Under the pieces are notes generated by a model. That model saw only the letters and a list, made by a program, of their open reading frames with translations. It had not been told where the DNA came from and did not search any database. DNA of 64,000 bases, taken from NCBI RefSeq assembly GCF_036711975.1, contig NC_091971.1, forward strand, positions 9,307,501 to 9,371,500. Direction: 5' to 3'. The translations under genes were made by a program, and so were the position numbers. This stretch comes from Onthophagus taurus (taxonomy: Eukaryota > Arthropoda > Insecta > Coleoptera > Scarabaeidae). The first letter of the stretch is position 1, and the number at the start of each line of letters is the position of its first letter. Below are positions 14,300-41,700 of this stretch, one piece after another.

Positions 14300-16500
14300 T
14301 ATTAAAAACTTCCTGGTATTAAGTATTTGTGAACTGTAGTAAGAAGGAAATAATGATCTTCTGCGGGATGGGTAAGAAGCAGTTCATAATAACGTCAAGA
14401 TGCTAAAAGTAGCAGTTTAACAGTAGAAAGCCCATGACAGGAGCAACGACGAGTTCCATGAAGATTATAATTGCTAATAACTGATGCCACGAATGATAAT
14501 TTTTAAACATCTTTCACTCCTCCAAAAATAGACATACATATGGCCGAAGTAAACCGTGAGGATCCACAAAGGGACCGCTGGGGCCTAAGTGCTTTGGTTA
14601 CACCACCTGTTGTTTAACCAACCTCACTTGCTCTTGGAACTACATACATACATACATCTGATGCCACTTCAAGTACTTAATAGAATACACTCATCGCATT
14701 TGAAAACATAAATAGTCACGATCACGTATTTATAAACCTGATCCTTGTATGAAGGCACTTTAGGATATCACTTCGGGATGATTCCTGCTCACTCTACAAT
14801 CAGTCTCTGATAAAAGTCCAAGTATGTCCCCACCCAGCCTTTGAACGAATCATCTTAGGAAGGCTTCACGCCTTATCCTAGGGGAGAGGTGTTGCTTTTT
14901 GTCTCCTTTGTTTGAGAGTCAAAAATCAGTATACAGTCTTGAGATGCGAATTTCTTAAAGTGAAATTTAAAATATAATATGTGAGAGTTAAAATATGATT
15001 GATATCTTGAATTTTTCTTAAAGGATTGACGTTCAAAAAATCGTGATATCTTTAGTATCCTCTCCTTTATAGTGCGTAATAAATAGTTCAATCAATATAA
15101 GTGGGTGTGATAGTGAAATAAATTTGCTCGAAGTCGTTTGAATAGACGAACGGTTAAAATGGGAGGAGTGGGTCGTTAATTCTGCACGCCGAGGAGGTAA
15201 TTGATTGGTCGTTTTGTAAATAAAAATTTGCCTGCAATGGCTAGGAGGGTTTTAAGTACTTTTTCTAGACTTTCTAGATTTACCACCCGCATAAATTTTC
15301 TGTGAAACACAACCCAATTAATTGCGGGTAGAAGTTGCCTATTCAGAATTATTCTAAAGACTAATACAACTTATTTCTTTAATATTATGAAAAGATTTTC
15401 TTTCCATAAAAGTATTGATAAATCATTATCGATAAGAAATATTTTGAAGTCACGTCGTCGAGTGCCACAACAAAGTTCCTAAACAATCATATATTTTATT
15501 CAATAACTCCGAGATTGCAATCTTTACGATCTTTCCCACTGGTGGCGCGGTAACGAATTGCGGTAATAAACATTCTCCACGGCCCCTCATAACTCCTTCC
15601 TGTGTACCCGAGATGGTGGCAGAGTCGACTTCGAAATATCGTACTCATTGGGGGGTTGTAAAAGAATATGACGTATTTATAATTGACCACATCTCGAATA
15701 GTTCACCAATACTTTCCATCAGATTCTGATTCGTGTAATGGTTCTTATACGACTCCCTTTTTGGCCATAATAAAGGATTCTCTTTTATCATCACCATAAG
15801 ATCTTACCATCTAACTAGGTCAAAACATACTTTATTTTACTAATAGTTATTAATAAAGAATTAATTTTCAAATATTGCTTCTTATTAACCAATAAAATCT
15901 AACGATCTCCCGAGGACATAAAACTGATTAAAGTTGTAAACTGAAACTAGTTAATTTTCGTACGATATTTGCTATGTGCGAAGTTTTCGTGTACCATCAA
16001 ATAGCAGCGGGTTGTCTGGCAGATCGTAATTCATCTACAAATCCTGTATATTCCCTAAATTCGTATAGAGAGGAACCCCGTGGAGGTACACGTGTGTACT
16101 TTCCGCTATGTATGCAATAAATTGGATGGTAGCGCCGTTGTGATATTCCTCGTTGCACTAAATAAACATATGCTAATTATATGCATTGCGACGGTATCAT
16201 GTTAATAAGAGAGGGATTCGAATTTTGTTTACGAAAACGATAGGCATGAAATTCCGTTTTGGTGAGGATTCAATTCCATTGTACTACTCAACCAACCTTC
16301 CATGGAGAGGTAATTAATCAGGCTTTAAACCAATAACTGTTTAGATCTCGAATTACTTGACGCTATAGAACTATAAGATCCTATTAATACTAGTATTCGA
16401 ATGTAATTTCACGAATACGTCCATCCTATTACGCAGCACAAACCGTATGTAATAAACGTAATAATTGATTATAAGTATACATATATTATTATAAGATAGT
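14300..16500. other. Non-coding stretch
   Basis: No gene is supported. A short TACA tetranucleotide run (ACATACATACATAC) lies near 14,642. The region ends in the presumed 5' flank of the MARCH-like gene. Confidence 0.5.
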
Positions 16501-16536
16501 GAAGGGAAACGTCAAAATGATGAAATTGTCGAAATT

Positions 16537-17241
16537 ATGTCTGTCGTTAGTCTGAAAGACGACAAAGAACACAATGGTATCAAAACTTCGATTGATGCAA
16601 AACAAAGTCCGTCCGTGGCGGATGGTTCATATGGAGTAACAAATGTGCAAGTAGAATCTGATAAATCCAGACCAGCTACGGCAACATTTTCGGCCAGTTC
16701 GATCGTATGCAGGATATGTCAGACTCATTCCGCCGATGAGATCCTCATTTCACCATGCAACTGTAAAGGGACGTTAGCTTACGTTCATTTGCCATGTTTA
16801 GAAAGATGGTTGAACCAAGTAAGTAGGACATATTGCGAATTATGCATGTTTCGATACAATTCGATTCAAACCCAACGATACGGATTATGCGAGAGTTTAA
16901 GAATTTGGATTCGCCATCCTCGCAACAGAAATCACGTTCAATCGGATTGTGTCATCGCAGCACTTCTTACAACAGTCACAATCGGTCTTATAGCCGTTTG
17001 TATTATGGGAATGCAGTATTTTGTGCTTGAAGCGAAAAAATTGGGTATTAATCAGATCTGGACTAAGGGATTCGTGTCTGTATTTTTATGTATCATTTTA
17101 CTTGGATATGTTATCACCTTGTATTTAATGATCAAAGATCAATTTTTACCCTGGTACCATTGGTGGAAGACTACTGTTGATGTAAAATTACTTTTAAATC
17201 CTTCTGTAACAATGATTGAAAAGCATTCGACAAACACGTAA
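16537..17241 (+). CDS. MARCH-type RING-CH E3 ubiquitin ligase
   Basis: This is a complete 234-aa single-exon protein, predicted to be a membrane ubiquitin ligase of the MARCH2/MARCH3 type that marks membrane proteins for endosomal trafficking or degradation. A RING-CH (C4HC3) finger is visible: C58, C61, C74, C76, H84, C87, C100, C103, with the family words ISPCNCKGTLAYVH and ERWL. Two hydrophobic segments follow, at about residues 138-163 and 178-199. This gives the cytosolic RING / two-TM / cytosolic tail layout of the subfamily. The start chosen is the ATG at 16,537. An upstream ATGATG at about 16,517 is out of frame and short, so it could act as a uORF. AATAAA lies 12 bases after the stop. 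The lack of introns is notable beside the intron-rich neighbours. The exact orthologue is not assigned. Confidence 0.93.
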   Translation: MSVVSLKDDKEHNGIKTSIDAKQSPSVADGSYGVTNVQVESDKSRPATATFSASSIVCRICQTHSADEILISPCNCKGTLAYVHLPCLERWLNQVSRTYCELCMFRYNSIQTQRYGLCESLRIWIRHPRNRNHVQSDCVIAALLTTVTIGLIAVCIMGMQYFVLEAKKLGINQIWTKGFVSVFLCIILLGYVITLYLMIKDQFLPWYHWWKTTVDVKLLLNPSVTMIEKHSTNT

Positions 17242-26340: not shown

Positions 26341-26431
26341 AAAAAAGAAATTTGAAATTAATATTAATAAACAAAATAAACTTTATTGTAGAATAAAAAT
26401 ATACTATTAATATATAGAGCAATAAAAAAAT

Positions 26432-27555
26432 TCATTTCTTTTTGGAATATTTCTCAACTTCAACTCGAATAGCAGAAATATCAGAATCATACACCCTACA
26501 ACAACCACCAATCCACTTCACACCCAAATCTAACCATTTCGAGACATAATCAGCTGGTTTTAAACAATTTTCACGCCCAAACCACCTAAATGAAATAATA
26601 ATAATAAACTTGATTTTAATTTAGTTCCAACAAACCCTTTCTCTTTGGAATAATCTTCACCACTATTTGCATAAACGATTAAGGGAATTGCGATACTTTT
26701 ATCACTGTGAACCTCGCTTAAAAGTTCTTCAACAAATACAGGAGAAACGCAATTAGTTCCTATAGCTACTAATTGATCGGGATTTAAATTATAGCAGTAT
26801 AAAACGGTTTCTTTAAAATTTTCACCTGAAGCTAAACAAGTTCCATTCTAAAAATTAATAAAATTGAGAAGTTTTGATTTTTTGGGATCAATTAGTAATA
26901 AAAAAACCTTGCAATTAAAAGATAACCAAGCTTTTATATCTGGATATTCTTTTAAAAGCTCTAAAAGCACTTCCGCTTCAATTTTACAAGGTATAGTTTC
27001 AAAAGCTAATAAATCCACACCACTATCAATTAAAGCTTCTATTCTACCGTTATGGTACTCTTTTAAGATCTCTTTACTTATTGTATCACGATAAGTTCCT
27101 GTATATTCAGATCCATCATGTAGCGAAGCTCCATAAGGTCCAACAGACCCAGCTATTAAAGGTAATTTACAATAAGGGTTTTCTAAAATATAATTATCCC
27201 TAGCAGTCTTGGCAAGTCCAACAGCCTCTCTTATTAAATTAAGACTTTCTTCTTTAGATAATTTCAAATGGTTCTTAAATCCTTCAACACTAGCTTGATA
27301 AGTATTAGTTCCAATTATATTTGATCCAGCTAAAAAAGAAATAAATACATCATAATATAAGAACATTAAGTATTAGAATTTACCACGTAAGAAATCAAGG
27401 TGTGTTTCAATAACCGCTTCTTTATTTGTAGTCAATAAGCGGGCACTCCACAAGGCATCATCATCAAGAGATTTATCGATGTGTTTTGCAATTTGGGTTC
27501 CAAAACCCCCATCGAGGATTTTAATCTCGTCTACGTCGTAAATACCTTCTAACAT
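26432..27555 (-). CDS. Homocysteine S-methyltransferase, copy 2
   Basis: Spliced model on the minus strand: 27,384-27,555, 26,908-27,329, 26,636-26,847, 26,432-26,585, giving 319 aa. It makes the same reaction type as copy 1. It keeps ILDGGFGTQIAKHIDK, GSNIIGTNTYQAS, GSVGPYGASLHDGSEYTG, LAFETIPCKIEAEVL and the zinc ligands in GTNC (C231) and GGCCR (C297, C298), so it should be active. Three introns sit at the same positions and phases (1, 0, 2) as in copy 1. The intron that in copy 1 interrupts the segment just before GSVGPYG is absent here. Two donors are weak (AAG/GTTTTT and AGG/GTTTGT) and should be confirmed by RNA. The two copies are inverted relative to each other and flank MED11. Confidence 0.92.
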
Positions 27556-28499
27556 AATTACGTAAATTAATAACGATGAAATTGTAAGTTTTTGTTGACA
27601 ATATCGGTGGAATGTTCAATAAATTACTAAATATATGTGGTAACGTTGCATTTCAAATACTTCGTCTGACAGTTTTGATGTGAATGATGTGAAGTAGGAA
27701 ATGTCATCTTATTTATTTAATAGATTTGAAATAAATTCGATTTCAAAATTTATTTTAATTTGTTATTAAGTATATCAACATATTTATTTATTTAAATTAA
27801 TTTCAATTAATTAATTTTGTTGAAAATTAAAGGCAACTTCATGTTTATTAGGTTACATTATCTGTCATGTTTGAAGTGAAGTAGGAAATTTAATGATTTT
27901 AATGTTTTAAACAACATTAATTTTTATATTATATAATAATATCCGGTTTAATTTTTGGTTAAATTTTCAGTTAAGTGATTCAATTAAGTAATTTGAGCAT
28001 TATTTGTAGTTTTTAGGTACATATTTGATTATGGTAAATACAGCTAATATCACGTTTATTGGGTTAATTGATGTTTTTGTAATCTATTCTCGTAATAAAT
28101 TTTAGTTTATTTTCATTTTTACGAGAAACTTTATGGGTTTTGTTGTAAAAAGGTATCAATGAACTTATTTATGTAAGTATTAAAGACAATATAACCATGT
28201 AAATTACGTCGTTAACCCAAAATGTGAACTTATTTATAGGAACATTACTTGATTGTAAATTTATCTTTTCATCCTATTATTTTTTTTTATATCAACATTT
28301 GGGCGGTGCTCATTATCTGTTTAATATTCTAACACATTTCAAGGATTTTTTAATACTTTACCCAAAAAAATCAGTATTAATAATTTATAAAAAAATCTAT
28401 TTATATCAACTCATTGTATACATTTTGGGTTCTTCAGGAACATCTATTTATAACTTGAAATATACATTGTTGTAGTCTTTTTGTTCTTTTAACATTTTT
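27556..28499. other. Divergent intergenic region between methyltransferase copy 2 and PIX
   Basis: AT-rich sequence. Two similar words (GTGAAGTAGGAAATGTCATC near 27,690 and GTGAAGTAGGAAATTTAATG near 27,877) hint at a small duplication. A mini-exon-like ATGAACTTATTTAT followed by GTAAGT occurs near 28,158. It could be the first exon of the small frame downstream, but this is speculative. Confidence 0.35.
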
Positions 28500-28740: not shown

Positions 28741-31700
28741 ATGAGTGGAGAACCTTTAGTTGTCCAGGCCATTTATTCATTTAAGGGGACAAATAACGAT
28801 GAGGTGAGTCATCTAAACATATTTGGTTTTTATTATTTTGTGTGATTTTGTTTTTAGTTATGCTTTAAAAAGGGAGATAAAATTACAATTACACAGAAAG
28901 AAGATGGAGGTTGGTGGGAAGGAACTTTAGGTGGTAAAACAGGATGGTTTCCAAGTAATTATGTTAAAGAATGTCGAGATGTTTCCGGTCCACCTCCTTT
29001 AACAACAATAACTCAGCAAAAACAATATCGAGAGGTTGTTCTTAAAGATGTTGTTGATTCAGAAAAAGCTCATGTTACAGAACTTCAGGGATTAGTTAAT
29101 AACTTTTTGAATCCTTTAGAAAAAAGTGGAATGTGTGTTTTATCTTTTTGTTATTAATTATATTTTATTAATTTAAATATTGTAGTTTATCACCAGATGA
29201 ATTTCAACAATTAATTAGTAACTTATATGAAATTGTTGATACTCATCAACAGTTGCTTAATACACTTGAGGAAGAACTTAAACTCAACCATGAAGCTAGA
29301 GTTGGTCATATTTTTCTTACAAGAGCGCCTAAAATTAAATCTGTACATCAAACATATTGTTCATTACATCCTCGAGCAGTTTGTATATTGGATAAATATA
29401 AGTAATTCTTTTAATTTATATTTTAACATAATTTTATACTTTAATAATTATTTTTAGAGATGAATTAACAAAATTTATGGAATCATGTAATGCAGCAGCA
29501 CCAGGTATTTTAGTATTAACAACAGGTTTAAGTAAACCATTTAGAAGACTGGATAAATACTCTGGTATGTTACAAGAATTAGAAAGACATGTCGAAGAAA
29601 GTCACCCTGATAGAGGTGATACTCAACGATCTGTTGTTGTTTATAAAGAAATCGCTGTAAGGATTATTATTATAAACAAAAAAAAATATTTATTTTATTT
29701 TTTTTAAGGCAACTTGTGAAGCTACACGGCGACAAAAAGAATTAGAGCTTCAAATTGTAACAGGTCCTGTTCGAGGTTGGGAAGGGCAGAGTCTTTCAAC
29801 ACTTGGTGATATCATTTATATGGGTTCTGTGGCGATTGGTCCACAACACCATGATAGATATTTAGTATTATTTCCTAGTACACTATTAATGTTATCTGTC
29901 AGTAAACGATTGAGTGCTTTTATTTATGAGGTAAGAATTGATTTCGTTTTAAGAAATAATTTAATTTAAAGATGAGTAGGGCAACCAAAAATATGCTCCA
30001 AAAATAGTAGTTTAAGCGCTTAAAAAAATGTTCTATAAAAATCAAAATATGCTCTATAAAAAATTGGAATTAAATATTAAAAAATGGATATCTTTTAAAT
30101 CTGTAGGTGAGGTTAAACAAAGTAAATGATAACTAATATCTATTGAGATTTAGAAAATATTGAAGAAAATACAAAAAACAAATTGTTATACTGAAGTTAT
30201 AGGTGCAAATTTAAATGCTTTAGTGCTTCACTAACGTTATTTCTGTAGATCCTTTACTCAAACATGTAGACATTTCTTTCAAAATAGAGAAACCATGTTT
30301 TTTTTTAAATAACCGTACCCATTTATGATCAGCAAACGGCTCAAATTTTCCATAGTGCTTCGTCGTGCATGCTTTGATTTTCCGTTTCTTGTTGACTCTG
30401 CAGTATTTTTGTTTTTAAAGCGGCTTTTTTGGCATTTTCTGCGCATTGTTGGTTAACAAATCCAATCAATTTGAATCGTGGATCTAGAAATGTCGAAACA
30501 GTTAATACATTGTACATTTCTATATTATCAAATCCACTAATCAGCTGAGATTTTTATGATTATTTCTTGTATGATAGTCAATTCGCTAAAAAGATTACGA
30601 AAGAACCTGTGGGATAGTTTTCTACCCTTATAATTTTAGCAATTTTTTCAAATGGTTTTAGAATCTTGCATAATTTATGACACATTTTCCATTCATCTGA
30701 ACTTAACAGAGAAATATCTGCATCCAATATTGCTATGGTACTTTTAATGGCATTTTCTAATTCGACAAATCAGCTCAACATATAATAAGTCGAATTCCGG
30801 CGTTTTTCCGGAATTTTCTTGAAAATGTTTCATTTGCAATAGTGCTGCTTTTAAAGTGGGGTTTATTTTTGATATCAACAGGGAAATATGAGATGTTTCC
30901 AAACAATTTTGCAACACTAAATTTATTGAGTGAGCAAAATATCCAAAATAGTTCAGTTTTAGTTCAGCTGTAATAGCATTTTTAATATTCAATACATTGT
31001 CAGAAGATCTGCTATATTCCAATCTGAAATTATGTTTCTAATTTCAATGGTTAAGTTTTTACTTGTATGGTGTCCTTCCATTATTTTACAATCTAGTAAA
31101 ATCGTTTTTAATTCAAAGTTTTAATTTATCATATGCGCTGTAAAAGATATATAACTTTTGGTGTTTATGGAGGTCCAACAGTCATAAGTATCTACAGCTT
31201 GTTACCATTTCTTGGCATTTTAAATAGCATTTTTCGAATAAATTTGGAATTAGCTCATATGGTTTATTTAGTGATTTTACAATCAGAATCCTGGTAACTG
31301 CTAAGAAAAGAACTGGTGGTGACAGTGATTTTAAAATCACCAGTGAAAACTAACCGGTATCGATATATCGCTCATCACTAAATTGTATTTGTATCTGTTG
31401 TCTTTTTTTTAATAGGGAAAACTACCATTAACTGGAATTGTTGTAACAAGATTAGAAGATAACGATCAATTTAAAAATGCTTTTGAAATAAACGGACCAA
31501 TGATTGAAAAAAGAATTGCAGTTTGTCAAAGTCGCGATGAAGCAAATCATTGGGTAGAATTATTAAGGAAACATATGCCCAACAGATCGAACAGTATTCA
31601 TCAAAAACCGCTATCAACCCACGTGGAAGTTGTGCAACAACCTCACGTAAGATTTCAAAAATAATTTTATTTTATTTTTTAATATTAAATCAAATTTAAT

Positions 31701-34700
31701 TGAAATAGTTAAATCAAAGGGGTTACAGCACAAGAACTTCAATTCTTATATACTCACCACAAATCAATTTTAAACCTACTTATCCCCCTCGGAATTATCC
31801 AAGCGCAGCACCATACGCCGGTTTAACAGAATTTTATCATAAATTAATCAAATCAAAAATTATCAATAAAAACGTAGTTAAATTTTTGCTTTATTCGGAA
31901 TATAACAACGTTAATTTGGATGGCGTTAAAAGAAGACAACATCGAACTGAGTTCGTTATAAAACCTCATTCAAGAAAACGTGATAATATTATAAAATGTA
32001 GCACAGACACAGATTCGGATAATTCATCAAAAAATTGTTCGAATTATTCAGAAAATAAAAAAATTTCCCGCCAAAATGCAATCGATGAAACATCTTCTTC
32101 ATCGGATGACGATGATGACTCAAATGAAAGTAATCCTTTCGGTTACATACGTTATTATAACCCACAAACATGTTCGGAGCAAGTTCGGTATGAAAGCGTA
32201 ATCGATTACGAAAATATTTCACCCCCAAAAAAAGAAATAAAATTAAAATCAAAACCAAGCATTGTGTTAACATCAACAGCAAACGTCCAATTAATAAAAC
32301 AAACATCGGAAACTTCAGATGCAAGTTCTTGTTTATTACAAAAACCATTTACGGGGTGCGAAGATTTAGTTAATATGGATAGTAGCTTTGAAATTGATCA
32401 CAATTTACAAAAGCCGTATTTTCCAACGACCCGACAAAGTTGTCCCACGAAAATGGTTGGAAACAAATTTAGTTCATCGAGTTTAACAACAATTTATATT
32501 CCAACATATCAATCGAATAGTGAAAATAATATTAGTAACATAAATTATAATAACGAAAATAAAAAAAAATCGTCCTGTGAAAGCGAAAGTACCACAACGA
32601 CTCATTCAAGCAGTATTGATATCCCCGTTAATGTCGCACCACTACCTGATGCTATGTTAGCGGAATTATTGTATAGTGATAAAACGGAATCGGAAATTGA
32701 AAGCGATCGTACCGAATCGACGGTTATAAAACCACCGGTTATGTTTCAAAACGATGAAAGACTATCAATTCAAAAAACGAATGCTAATTTTCGTACTCAC
32801 AGTATTAATTCCGACAAACCAAAACCAAAACGAAGATCAACCATTCATTTAAGCGGAAAAGATAGTAATAATTTATTAAGACGATGTGTTTCCTATAAAT
32901 ATTTAGAGATGTCCTCGCGCGAAGATACCAGACAAAGTCAAACTTGCTGTTGTTGTCAAAGTCCGAGATCTTCTGATTCGGGTATGGCAGGAAGTTGCAC
33001 CTTAAATTCACCGGATATAGCCCCACATCACGAAATCGAAGACACAAACAGCATGGATATGTCAGTTTTGTTTGAAAAATATAATCGATTTTCAAATCCA
33101 AGAAATATGTTATCATTAAGCGAAATTGAAGCGAGAACTTACGAATCTGAATGTCAATGCACATCCCCTTTTGGGTCAACGCCAAGAACTTCTTGTCAAC
33201 CTTCAATCTCTGGAAATACTTACTCAGATTCGCAACATGATTCTGCAAGGACTTCCGTTACTTCAACTAGCGTTGAATTAAGAAATTTAACGACGAATCA
33301 ATGGAATAACGAGGACAACAAAGATCTTTATAAACCGAAAAAATCGAAATCTTTAACTAATATGTTTGAAGTACAAAACGTGGGGTTAAGTGTAAAAGAA
33401 AATGAGGAAGAAGCTGGAAAACAAAAATTATATAAATCGGGGTTGTACGCTCATTGGTGGATGAAAGCTAAGATTCCGATTGAAGTTGTTAAAGGAATTT
33501 ATGAAGAATCAGCAACAGGCAAGGGTGCGCAACGTGTGGATTTCATGTTTTTTTTGGCTTTGATGTGCTTGGAGATTAAAAATTAACCTACAAAAATTTA
33601 ATTTTAACTAGTTTAGAGTGCAACCCTTGCCTGTTTATTTTTTACTTTCACCCCTAATTTCATTTATCATTTTATGTTAACCTTTTAACGCGCACATTTC
33701 ATTTACAGTACCTCCATATAACGAACCTTGATATAAAGGACAAAATATGAGTATATTATAAAAGTTAGCCCTCATAAATAGAATCCAATTCGGGTTATTT
33801 TTCAAGTTCTATTCCATGTTTATAAATAAACTCAGGGTATTCCCCTGAGAGTTGTTTATACGACGTATAAATCAAGGACGGTAGTTCTAGTTTTAATTGT
33901 TATTCAGTGCTAGATTATTGTATATTTTTATTGAACTAACACTAGATCTAGAATCAGAATCACTCGAGTGTAGCCGTCTTGAGAGACGTGTGGTTAAACC
34001 CGAATGATTCTAGTTCTAGTTCTAAAAATGCAAAACTAGAATTAACACTAGACCTAGAATCATTCGGGTTTAGCCGCACGTCTTTCAAGACGGCTAAACC
34101 AGCATGATTCTAGTTCTAGGTATAGTGTTAGATCTAGCAACAGTGCTAGTGTAAAACTAGAAATAACACTAGACCTAGAACTAGAAAGTTTCGGGATTAG
34201 CCGTCTTAAGAGACGCACGGCTAAACTCGATCGAGATCTTTATTTTATATTATGAACCTTAAGTTCCAAATTAACAACATTACAAAACACGAATAGAATA
34301 AATTAAGCATTTGCTAATTCAAAGTATGAAATAGTAGTTGCTATGCGTGACGTCACGAACGGGCCTTCGAGCTGTGCATCTTTTCCTGGGATGTACCAGT
34401 CCTCTTAGTAAGATTTTACTGTCCTTGGTAGCCCTCCGAATCTGCGTGCATTAAAATTATTCATTCATTCGTTATATTGAGGTTTTACTGTACTTCAAAT
34501 TTTATTTTAAATAATAAAAGAAACCCATAAAACAATTTTCGAATAATCTCAACAATCAATTTTTTTTTTTAATTTAATTTTGTAATTTTAATTTTAGCCA
34601 TCACCCCTGGTATCGACAAGAGGCACGAACAATCGCCACGGAGGCCCCCCGAACAATAACGAGTCCCGGTTAATATCGACACCCCCTTCTCACGGTTCGT

Positions 34701-35744
34701 TTATCAATAATAATAACAACAATAAAGATTGGTCTGCGAGTTGTTTACGACCGGCGCCCCCTTTAAGTCCTTGTTTAGCATTTGGATCGGCTCCATACGA
34801 TCCCCATCATCGCGCAAATCGTAAAACCACCAATTACAAAGAGGATGCTCTTATTCTCGATGTAATCGAAGCTTATTGTTGTACAGGAAAACAAAGAAAT
34901 ACTGTTAATTCAGGTAAGGATGAGATATTTTTATGGTTTATAACTTAAATTTTAAAAACAAAGAGAAAATGAATTTATTGTTTATTCTTTTTTGTTAATC
35001 TTTTGGATGGTGATTAAATCACGCAGTGGAGCTGTTGACAGGTGGTAACGTACAGATGCATGATAAAATTGCACGTAATCAGTTGCACTCGTGTAATAGC
35101 GTTGTTGATTTGGAGAGTTCAACGCCCGCGTTCGCCCCTTTGCTCCATCCGAGGAGTTATAGACCGCACGCGCCTCGTGCATCCACGTGGTGTTGTGGCA
35201 ATATTGTTATTAAACAATTGCGCAAAACGCAACATTTAGAATAAAATCTCCTCAAATCAGTAGATATAAAAAAGTGTTCTTTATTGTGTGTTTTTTATAA
35301 AAAAAATTAAAATGTGCCTTCAATATTAAATTTATACCATTTATGATCAGTATTTGATATTAGTAAACAAGATAATTGTAAACTGTGATGATTGTGGCTT
35401 TTGGTTTTTCTTTTTTCAATTTATATTGTGTGGTAGATCTCACTTTAAATAATTACCAACAGTTTTTTTTATATTATTACAACGATTGTTTTACAGTTAA
35501 ATATAATCAGATGCAAAGAAGTAGCGAAGTCGAAAGAAATTTGTTCGAGGTCGTGCAGATTTTGCAGGGTCAAGTGAAGAATTTAGAAAATAATTTATCC
35601 ACGTTAACGTCTCAATTAACGGAAGAAAAAATTGCGAGATGTACTCTTCAGTTGATTGTGAAGAATTTTCTTTCCAACCATAATACAAAAGATAGTGATA
35701 AAATTGAATGGCCCGCTGGTATAGAAAATAATTTATTAACGTAA
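28741..35744 (+). CDS. Pix: PIX / ARHGEF7-type RhoGEF (coiled-coil isoform)
   Basis: Exons: 28,741-28,803, 28,858-29,132, 29,186-29,401, 29,458-29,656, 29,709-29,930, 31,416-31,646, 34,598-34,913, 35,497-35,744. Phases all fit and the product is 589 aa. PIX activates Rac/Cdc42 and scaffolds PAK and GIT at adhesions and synapses. Domains in order: SH3 at residues 8-62 (AIYSF, GGWWEG, GWFPSNYV) that binds PAK; DH at about 80-260 (GILVLTTGLSKPFRRLDKY); PH at about 278-385 (GKLPLTGIVVTRLED); then SCLRPAPPLSP and the GIT-binding-type segment EDALILDVIEAYCCTGKQRN; then a C-terminal coiled coil (FEVVQILQGQVKNLENNL). The frame ends NNLLT with TAA overlapping a GTAAGT, so one more exon is possible. 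Two alternative ends are listed separately. Introns 5 and 6 contain repeats. Confidence 0.95.
29967..31380 (-). mobile_element. Decayed hAT-like transposon in PIX intron 5
   Basis: A minus-strand fragment (30,744-31,022) reads FGYFAHSINLVLQNCLE, the hallmark of the hAT/ZBED transposase catalytic region. Further degenerate coding lies around 30,240-30,730. The right end reads TATCGCTCATCACTA, which reversed gives TAGTGATGAGCGATA, a typical hAT terminal repeat. A diverged partner, TAAAGATGAGTAGGG, lies near 29,967. The 8-bp target duplication is not clear. The frame is broken, so it cannot move on its own. Confidence 0.7.
31709..33586 (+). CDS. Pix: Alternative 3' exon of PIX: long serine-rich tail
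   Basis: An open frame of 625 codons starts exactly at an acceptor (AAATAG/TTAAAT). It is in phase 0, the same phase as the PIX exon ending at 31,646, only 62 bases upstream. Splicing yields a 1,027-aa PIX with SH3-DH-PH plus this tail, replacing the GIT-binding and coiled-coil ends. The tail starts LNQRGYSTRTSILIYSP. It has acidic Ser/Asp runs (TSSSSDDDDDSNESNPFGY), a basic patch (KPKPKRRSTIHLSGK), a Cys cluster (CCCCQSPRSSDSGMAGS), and ends with an ordered-looking module (YAHWWMKAKIPIEVVKGIYE ... VDFMFFLALMCLE). It is mostly predicted disordered. An in-frame stop just upstream (31,706) rules out read-through without splicing. It could instead be a nested gene, but no good ATG starts the frame. 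The tail family is not recognised. Confidence 0.75.
   Translation, partial: LNQRGYSTRTSILIYSPQINFKPTYPPRNYPSAAPYAGLTEFYHKLIKSKIINKNVVKFLLYSEYNNVNLDGVKRRQHRTEFVIKPHSRKRDNIIKCSTDTDSDNSSKNCSNYSENKKISRQNAIDETSSSSDDDDDSNESNPFGYIRYYNPQTCSEQVRYESVIDYENISPPKKEIKLKSKPSIVLTSTANVQLIKQTSETSDASSCLLQKPFTGCEDLVNMDSSFEIDHNLQKPYFPTTRQSCPTKMVGNKFSSSSLTTIYIPTYQSNSENNISNINYNNENKKKSSCESESTTTTHSSSIDIPVNVAPLPDAMLAELLYSDKTESEIESDRTESTVIKPPVMFQNDERLSIQKTNANFRTHSINSDKPKPKRRSTIHLSGKDSNNLLRRCVSYKYLEMSSREDTRQSQTCCCCQSPRSSDSGMAGSCTLNSPDIAPHHEIEDTNSMDMSVLFEKYNRFSNPRNMLSLSEIEARTYESECQCTSPFGSTPRTSCQPSISGNTYSDSQHDSARTSVTSTSVELRNLTTNQWNNEDNKDLYKPKKSKSLTNMFEVQNVGLSVKENEEEAGKQKLYKSGLYAHWWMKAKIPIEVVKGIYEESATGKGAQRVDFMFFLALMCLEIKN
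33831..34366. repeat. Fold-back repeat family, copy D (largest) in PIX intron 6
   Basis: The copy begins with a small hairpin, CTCAGGGTATTCCCCTGAG. It has three successive ATTCGGGTTTAGCCG-type hairpins joined by CTAGTTCTAGGTCTAGTG words, and it ends in a segment shared with copy B finishing GTGACGTCACGAACGGGCC. It therefore defines both ends of the family. It is inserted between the long-tail exon and the next PIX exon. Confidence 0.85.
35027..35244 (+). CDS. Pix: Alternative short C-terminal exon of PIX
   Basis: The acceptor ACGCAG at 35,021-35,026 matches the phase-1 donor at 34,913. The exon would add VELLTGGNVQMHDKIARNQL and then a Ser/Arg/Pro-rich end with SYRPHAPRASTWCC, stopping at 35,242-35,244, to give a 579-aa isoform lacking the coiled coil. 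Vertebrate PIX genes also have an alternative end without the coiled coil that, from memory, carries a SYR...CC pattern. That resemblance is weak and unverified. An internal donor (ACAG/GTGGTA near 35,041) could instead make this a 15-base microexon. Confidence 0.5.
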
Positions 35745-38790: not shown

Positions 38791-41700
38791 TTAGCAATCT
38801 TCATTTCGAATAGTAACTTTTTGTTGAGCCATCATATATTTAGCATACATTTGTCTAGCTTGATTTAAAACTTTTACAACGTTATGTTTACGAACCATTT
38901 TATCAAAATGCATAGCCATTTCATTGTAATCCATGGCTTTTCCAATTATATGATCACGATGTTGCAATAAAACGGTAATACATAAAAACATTAAAAACGG
39001 ATTACCACCACCAAATTCAGTGGGTGGTGGTAAAAACGTACTTCGTGGTACTTCAGTAACTTCTTCACAAGAACTTGTTAGATTTGGAAGATCAGTTTTT
39101 AAGAAATCACTTAAATCTTCATTTAAATTGGTGTTTTCTGATGATTTCATTTCAGTTTCAATTTTTTTATTCTTCTCATTATGAATTTTTTTATTAATAT
39201 TAATTGAATGATTTAATATTTTAATTGGTGTTATCGTTTTATTCGATGAAACTTCATCAACCATTTGTCCCAACTCCGAATCAAATTCTAATTCAGATTG
39301 TTCATCTGGAGTATGAATAGAAGGATTAATTTGTTTCACCGTATTCGGACTTGATTCATGAAGTGGATTTTGCCATATAAAAATATCATCCCGACTTTTT
39401 TTAGTATTATCTTTTAAAATATTTGGATTTGAATCAATTTGGTCGGAACTTTTTTTAATGTTAATTTCAATCGATTTCGTTTCGTTACAATCGCTCGACG
39501 GGGATTCAGATTCTAACAAACGCTCGTTATAACCGTTTCCGAATACCTGACGATCTAAATTTTCTAATTCAATCCGTAATTCTCTCGTAACTGAAGTTGT
39601 CATTGGAAAATATTCTTGTGAATCATCGGGGCTGCATTCATCGAATGTGTCGTCGTTTGATGTTGATGAGGGTTTTTCGAAATTTGTTGAGGTTTTTTCG
39701 TAACTTGAAGATTCGGATTCTTCAAAACTTGATTTTGTTAACATAATTTTTGGTTTATCTAATTCGGAATATGTGTTTATTTTTGTTAATTTATCTGATA
39801 TTTTGTTTTTATTAACTGCTGCGAAATTTAAAAATTCGTTAAAGTTTTTAACCATTTTTCCTTTTGGTTTATTATCACCTTTATCATCTTTAACAGTATC
39901 TAAACCATCTAATGAAGAAAAAATATTTATTTTGTTATTAGTGATTTTTTCTTTTAATTCTTTAAAATGTCCATTTCTTTTTGTTGTTTTTATTAAATTA
40001 GTCATGCTTGATGATAAACTATTACTTCTCGTTTTTTCCAACATTATTTGCGAGTTTAATTTGTTATTATTTAAAATTATTGAATCTGATTTTTGCTCCA
40101 AAGGAGAAACAGACCGAGGTCTTAATTCCAATTTTCCTGATAAACTATTATTATCGCAACTATCAATGTTTTTAAGTGATTTTGGTGGTGAACGTTTTAA
40201 TAAACTAGCATCATCTAAGCTTTGATGCTTTGGTTTAGTGTCATAAATATTTTTAATCCTCCCAATAGTTTCATCCAAACTATGATTTTGCCGTTTTACG
40301 GCAGTGCTTTTTTTACTTGAATAACTAGCTAAAGAGATTGACGAACTTTGTCGCCTTAAAGCGCAAACTTTTGTGTACGCATTTTCTCTTGGTGTTTTTA
40401 CCATTGGACTAATAGGCGGAGTGACCGAGGGTAAATGAAATTTAGAATCGAACAATTTTAATTCTTTTTCTGGGGGATCTGGCGGAAGAGAACTCCACAA
40501 CACCTCCAACATCCTCAACGAATCATCAAAAGCAAATTCGCGCTTCATTTCAAGTAATAACCAACGATAGCAAAATAGTAAATCATCAGCTTGATGAATT
40601 TTTAAATAATTATAGAACTCAGAGTCGTAGTATAAAAGCCCCTCAGCTAAATGAGTGAATTTTTGTGTCATTGCAATACCATCTATCATAAAATTGGTGC
40701 TTAATCTTGACATAAGTGCACAAAAGCAAATGTAAGCATGAGCTTCATCACCCATTGTGACTAATAATGGAGAAGCTAAATCACTCATTCCTTGGCAGTA
40801 ACTTACTTTTGGATGATTTAATGCGTATCTATAAAATTAAAATATATTAAATAACAAGTTTTCAACATTTGACTTTTTATGTCAAAGTTGGACATAACCT
40901 CAATTATTATTTTTATTATTTTATCTAAAAATATATTTTTTTTAAGAATAAAGCTAAATGTAGATAAAACAATCCGGATTATTATATTTATTGCATTTTT
41001 TACAATCTAATTAAAAAAAAAATTAAGAATTTTAAAAAAATTGCGCCATCTTTCGGAATTAATCAATACTAATTTGAATTTGACATTAATGTAAATAAAA
41101 ATTGAGGTTATGTATTAGTAAAAGTAATTATCAACGTTATTTTTTAAATAAAAACTACTTACGTAGTTAGAATATTAAATAAAGACGCTATATTTTGATT
41201 ATCATCACTTCCTGCATAAAATGGATGATGTCTATCAGTTCTCAAAACATCTTTTTTAACCATTCCCGTTGTATAAGCTAATTCTCCAACAACTGGGCCT
41301 GCAGCAATAGCAGCTTTCCAAGTTTCTTTTAATTGTACATATTCCAAGGCTTTTTTGCGAATGTAATCCATTCGTTCTTTTCCAGTCATTCCATCAGGAT
41401 ACACATTTAATATATGTTTCCAAACCACTTTTCTATAAAATTAAATAAAAACAAAATATAGTTTTAGTATTAAGGAGTAAATAATTTACCTTAAACTTGG
41501 ATCAATTCCTCCAAAATAAATAAACGATCTTAATTCTTTGATATGAACAATTTGTCCCAAAGGGTCCAAAAACTTACGAAATTCAGCGTCGGAAAGTGGT
41601 GGTCTTGTTGGTTGAATGGAAATGTTGCCATCTTCCCCAAAATTAAAAGCTCTTTGTACCATATTTAAGGTTTTTCCCACCTAAACAATAAACATTTAAT

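Follow-up and report, generated by a model that had tools for sequence, protein, structure and literature searches.

A long reading frame 62 bases downstream of the PH-encoding exon as a candidate alternative last exon of a beetle PIX gene

The window analysed here (the whole 64,000-nucleotide stretch of Onthophagus taurus DNA) contains a PIX gene, which we take to be the counterpart of ARHGEF6/7 and of Drosophila RtGEF/dPix. A frame of 625 codons (31709–33586, + strand; hereafter the tail) lies between two exons of this gene. The tail is a real protein-coding stretch, beyond what chance would give. It is probably an alternative last exon of PIX, one whose use would deprive the protein of both its GIT-binding region and its coiled coil. 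Of the readings weighed below this is the best; it is plausible but unproven.

Results

Coding character of the tail

The tail encodes a Ser/Asn/Lys-rich protein and closes with a TAA stop at 33584–33586. It had been described from the letters of the window as the longest intact frame apart from a TBC-domain exon, and this is correct: among the 13 closed frames of at least 120 codons listed, it ranks second behind the 681-codon TBC-domain frame at 38791–40836 (− strand). The in-frame stop claimed just upstream was likewise found, as a TAG at 31706–31708. Stops make up 6.4% of window triplets and the per-site chance of a stop-free run of 625 codons is ∼1e-18; the longest frame in 1000 base-composition shuffles of the tail was 140 codons.

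Codon usage was scored after training on 1331 codons from PIX exons 1–6, the TBC exon and the frame of a RING-variant protein (16495–17241, + strand; presumably MARCH-like). The tail scored +0.129 versus a background of −0.216 (SD 0.042, maximum −0.059), i.e. ∼8 SD above it. This background comprised 1470 windows kept of 2000 drawn (those overlapping ∼26–41 kb were dropped), with stops removed. The five other frames of the same stretch scored between −0.605 and −0.241, stops being counted as penalties. The first 222 codons of the tail contain no stop (P ∼ 4e-7) and have a coding-like score (z = 4.9); taken by themselves, the first 100 reach only z = 1.9.

The PIX gene and its standard C-terminus

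Six exons on the + strand encode the constant part of the protein. Exon 1 (28741–28803) carries the ATG and the start of SH3, exon 2 (28858–29132) SH3 and the start of DH, exon 3 (29186–29401) DH, exon 4 (29458–29656) DH up to a phase 0 donor, and exon 5 (29709–29930) the region after DH and the start of PH, again with a phase 0 donor. Intron 5 (29931–31415) is occupied almost throughout by a dispersed repeat, and exon 6 (31416–31646) supplies the end of PH before the phase 0 donor CAC/GTAAGA. When joined, these exons give 402 residues in the SH3–DH–PH order of the PIX family, with SH3, RhoGEF and PH each above the Pfam cut-off. A PDB search with this product retrieved 61 sequences at E ≤ 1e-10; the top match was the PIX DH domain 1by1 (E = 1e-52), and ARHGEF7 and ARHGEF6 SH3 chains were among the others.

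The standard path continues through exon 7 (34598–34913) and a last exon at 35497–35744, and yields 589 residues. RhoGEF67_u2, the region in which we presume GIT binding to reside, scores above its cut-off of 26.8 bits both in exon 7 by itself (41.4 bits) and in the 589-residue protein (35.6 bits). The coiled coil is tentatively assigned on a match of betaPIX_CC in the frame of the last exon alone (21.6 bits, E = 2e-4), which is below the Pfam cut-off of 26.8; no betaPIX_CC match at E ≤ 0.001 was found in the joined 589-residue protein, nor in a search of the whole genome (290.8 Mb in 33 contigs, as for all genome-wide searches here). GIT_SHD has one match above cut-off elsewhere in the genome, and the GIT protein that it marks is the likely partner of PIX.

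The standard form ends in ...ENNLLT (its last codon at 35742–35744), unlike the DETNL end of vertebrate beta-PIX. A further frame, 35027–35244, follows exon 7 in phase, and its stop overlaps an AATAAA (35240). As a third C-terminus devoid of the coiled coil it is unsupported, with a codon z-score of 0.64 and an acceptor outscored by 67% of AGs.

Entry into the tail

The first methionine of the tail is residue 223. Since the frame runs for 222 stop-free, coding-like codons without one, it must be entered by splicing. The nearest PIX donor, that of exon 6 (31646/31647), lies 62 bases upstream and in phase, and agrees with the donor consensus at 7 of 9 positions. The putative intron (31647–31708) would be of ordinary size, inferred PIX introns 1–4 being 52–56 nt long. 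Joining 28741–31646 to the tail maintains the frame and gives 402 + 625 = 1,027 residues; the proposal of a 1,027-residue protein that keeps SH3, DH and PH is thereby borne out at the level of the predicted product, in which all three domains exceed their Pfam cut-offs.

The agreement of phase is to be read with caution. The putative acceptor takes its AG from the in-frame TAG at which the frame is closed on its upstream side, so that phase 0 is automatic; of the 4094 + strand stop triplets, 792 (19%) are TAG. Moreover, four of six PIX donors, that of exon 6 included, are in phase 0, and the match of phases is therefore weak evidence. The acceptor at 31709 is itself weak: of the 6178 AGs on the two strands of the window, 34.3% score higher. 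The weight matrix used for this comparison was built from 10 acceptors inferred by eye, seven from PIX and three from a homocysteine S-methyltransferase gene (26400–27560, − strand). When these acceptors were left out in turn, 8 of the 10 fell within the top 3.4% and the remaining two at 17.9% and 51.8%. Weakness of the acceptor does not conflict with alternative splicing, yet provides no argument for it. The sequence-only reading had taken as a cue that the frame opens exactly at a phase 0 AG acceptor matching the donor at 31646; the coordinates and the phase are right, but the cue loses its value as independent evidence.

End of the tail and flanking repeats

Among the GT sites in 31709–33620, ten reach 6 of the 9 donor consensus positions and none exceeds that number. 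The seven inferred PIX donors score from 5 to 8, two of them at 6 or less, so a weak donor inside the tail might still be used. The first AATAAA on the 3′ side of the tail stop (33825–33830) falls within a dispersed repeat that starts near 33755. A hexamer beyond the stop and no stronger internal donor are as would be seen in a terminal exon, which the tail may well be.

A perfect 13-bp inverted repeat (33514–33526 and 33623–33635, 96 nt apart) brackets the stop. The predicted RNA fold of this stretch was better than that of 199 of 200 shuffles (z = −3.1), and the 161 bp around the stop have a single match in the genome, namely themselves. The inverted repeat might form a hairpin close to the stop, or it might be an isolated insertion.

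The dispersed repeat beyond the tail (33755–34430) contains nested inverted repeats, with 93-nt arms that are 83% complementary. It has at least 236 matches in the genome, the window's own included; one listed piece was 68–70% alike. The 1485 nt of intron 5 gave 75 genome matches, again including the query itself; the others cover query positions 3–394 and 430–1457 and, among those listed, are 71–97% alike and in pieces. With intron 5 nearly all repeat, little room is left inside PIX for a separate 5′ exon, and PIX is the most economical source of a splice into the tail.

The tail has one full match in its own genome; two further hits, both weak, contain stops (E = 0.057 and 0.135). The possibility that it is a transposable element was rejected on account of this single copy.

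Tail protein

No family was found for the tail in Pfam and no match in PDB, both searched at E ≤ 10. Searches of viral sequence (viral_contigs) and of prokaryotic sequence (genome_contigs) returned 7 and 56 pattern matches, respectively, none of which was confirmed; these collections are uninformative on insects. Three peptide words of the tail matched no paper in the open-access literature, and a long PIX tail of this kind did not turn up among the open-access papers listed on RtGEF/dPix, CG10043, ARHGEF7 and PIX isoforms. Annotated database isoforms may already include such a tail.

The residues S, T, N, E, K, D and Q make up 54% of the tail. An AlphaFold model of the tail alone had a mean pLDDT of 34 and a pTM of 0.18, with 20 of the 625 residues at 50–70 and none higher; being run on the single sequence without an alignment, the model is weak evidence. 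On both grounds the tail appears to be disordered.

A PxxxPR motif occurs at tail residues 23–28 (31775–31792), possibly by chance. PAK binds the SH3 domain of PIX through a ligand of the PxxxPR form. The same form is seen in the CBL ligand of the CIN85 SH3 domain, according to the accessible part of the source (PMC7994203). Of 5000 shuffled versions of the tail, 388 (8%) also contain the motif, which is therefore treated as a lead only.

Alternative readings

The tail could belong to PIX and yet be used differently: it might be entered from an earlier donor, or it might be an internal exon that is left through a weak donor ahead of its stop and followed by the GIT-binding region and coiled coil. 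Phase permits other entries: exons 4, 5 and 6 are all in phase 0, and exons 2 and 3, in phase 2, fit the AGs at 31720 or 31729, both of which score slightly above 31709. Each such join would cost part of the conserved protein, however, i.e. PH when made from exon 4, the end of PH from exon 5 and much of DH from exon 2 or 3. As for an internal exon, a phase 0 donor-like site at 33380 (6/9) would join exon 7 in phase, and the last 24 codons of the tail are not coding-like (z = −0.2, with little power). On the other hand, no donor in the tail scores above 6/9, and the last 60 codons are still coding-like (z = 2.3). We consider these uses of the tail unlikely, though deserving of more weight than those that follow.

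Neither of the two readings that detach the tail from PIX function seems probable. In one of them, which we hold to be quite improbable, the tail would form the 3′ portion of an independent gene that lies within PIX in the same orientation and has a promoter and a small 5′ coding exon of its own. The Pfam and PDB searches revealed no relative of the tail, hence no proven link to PIX, and the weak acceptor does not favour a splice from PIX; but 222 coding codons would have to be accounted for without an ATG, and introns as short as introns 1–4, together with the repeat-filled intron 5, offer no obvious site for the 5′ exon inside PIX. In the other, the tail would not function as an exon, being either a coding stretch in decay or one of recent origin that has yet to gain such a function. 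A weak acceptor, the lack of a recognised domain, the low-confidence fold and the repeat insertions on both sides would all suit such a history, whereas 625 stop-free codons with their codon bias would need continuing selection or a very recent change, and we give this reading hardly any credence.

We thus return to the alternative last exon. The initial proposal of a C-terminal exon of PIX is upheld in part: the frame must be entered by splicing, an in-phase donor lies only 62 bases away, repeats leave little space close upstream for another 5′ exon, and a second genomic copy was not found. The part that leaned on the splice sites has been weakened, the argument being partly mechanical and the acceptor poor.

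Discussion

If the tail is an alternative last exon, the phase 0 donor after PH would face a choice between two splices. With the near one, 62 bases would be removed, the transcript would end in the tail exon and a protein of 1,027 residues would be made. With the far one, ∼2.95 kb would be skipped to reach exon 7, the coiled-coil exon would follow, and the product would be the 589-residue form. The long form would keep SH3, DH and PH and would be devoid of the GIT-binding region (34598–34913) and of the coiled coil (35497–35744). Both of these regions have scaffold roles in PIX proteins. Their loss implies that the exchange factor should be free of the GIT scaffold, and the long form might thus act on Rac/Cdc42 outside the oligomeric PIX–GIT complex. 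The suggestion that GEF activity would in this way be separated from the scaffold follows from the regions lost, and it goes no further than that. The long, mostly disordered and Ser/Thr-rich tail could in turn provide a platform for phosphorylation and for short linear motifs.

It is conceivable, as a long shot, that the PAK-like PxxxPR motif of the tail occupies the PIX SH3 domain in cis or in a neighbouring molecule and blocks the binding of PAK; a single splice choice would then uncouple the exchange factor from GIT and PAK alike.

PIX is known for acting in an oligomeric scaffold with GIT. A natural isoform that has the exchange-factor domains and not the scaffold part would, if real, make the two functions genetically separable, through loss of the tail exon or of the distal exons alone; were the tail species-specific or unused, its significance would be small. 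In Drosophila, as stated in the accessible part of the source, a dPix altered at a key residue of DH rescued egg production in the same way as the full-length protein (PMC6555532).

The proposed arrangement can be compared with three known systems. In alternative last exons generally, a donor chooses between a proximal terminal exon and distal exons. The tail would fit this scheme in that it lies near the donor, is closed by a stop of its own and is followed by a poly(A) hexamer, with distal exons as the alternative; it differs in that its hexamer lies within a repeat and its use in splicing is putative. Mammalian beta-PIX also exists in a form devoid of the coiled coil, beta2-PIX. Among the other isoforms of this protein (ARHGEF7) are the ubiquitous beta-Pix-a and the neuronal beta-Pix-b and -d; both neuronal forms have an insert region, to which beta-Pix-d adds 11 residues, as given in the accessible part of the source (PMC7135283). 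As in the candidate described here, one gene combines a constant SH3–DH–PH part with alternative C-terminal parts. The difference is one of extent: among the forms described in that part of the source, none exchanges the whole GIT-binding and coiled-coil end for a tail of 625 residues (PMC7135283). The third system, RtGEF/dPix of Drosophila, is an insect PIX gene like the one studied here, and several transcripts of it are annotated in the fly. The same partly accessible source reports seven annotated transcripts for the dPix locus, isoform A having been cloned for containing all major conserved domains (PMC6555532); that it was chosen for holding all of them suggests that other dPix forms may not.
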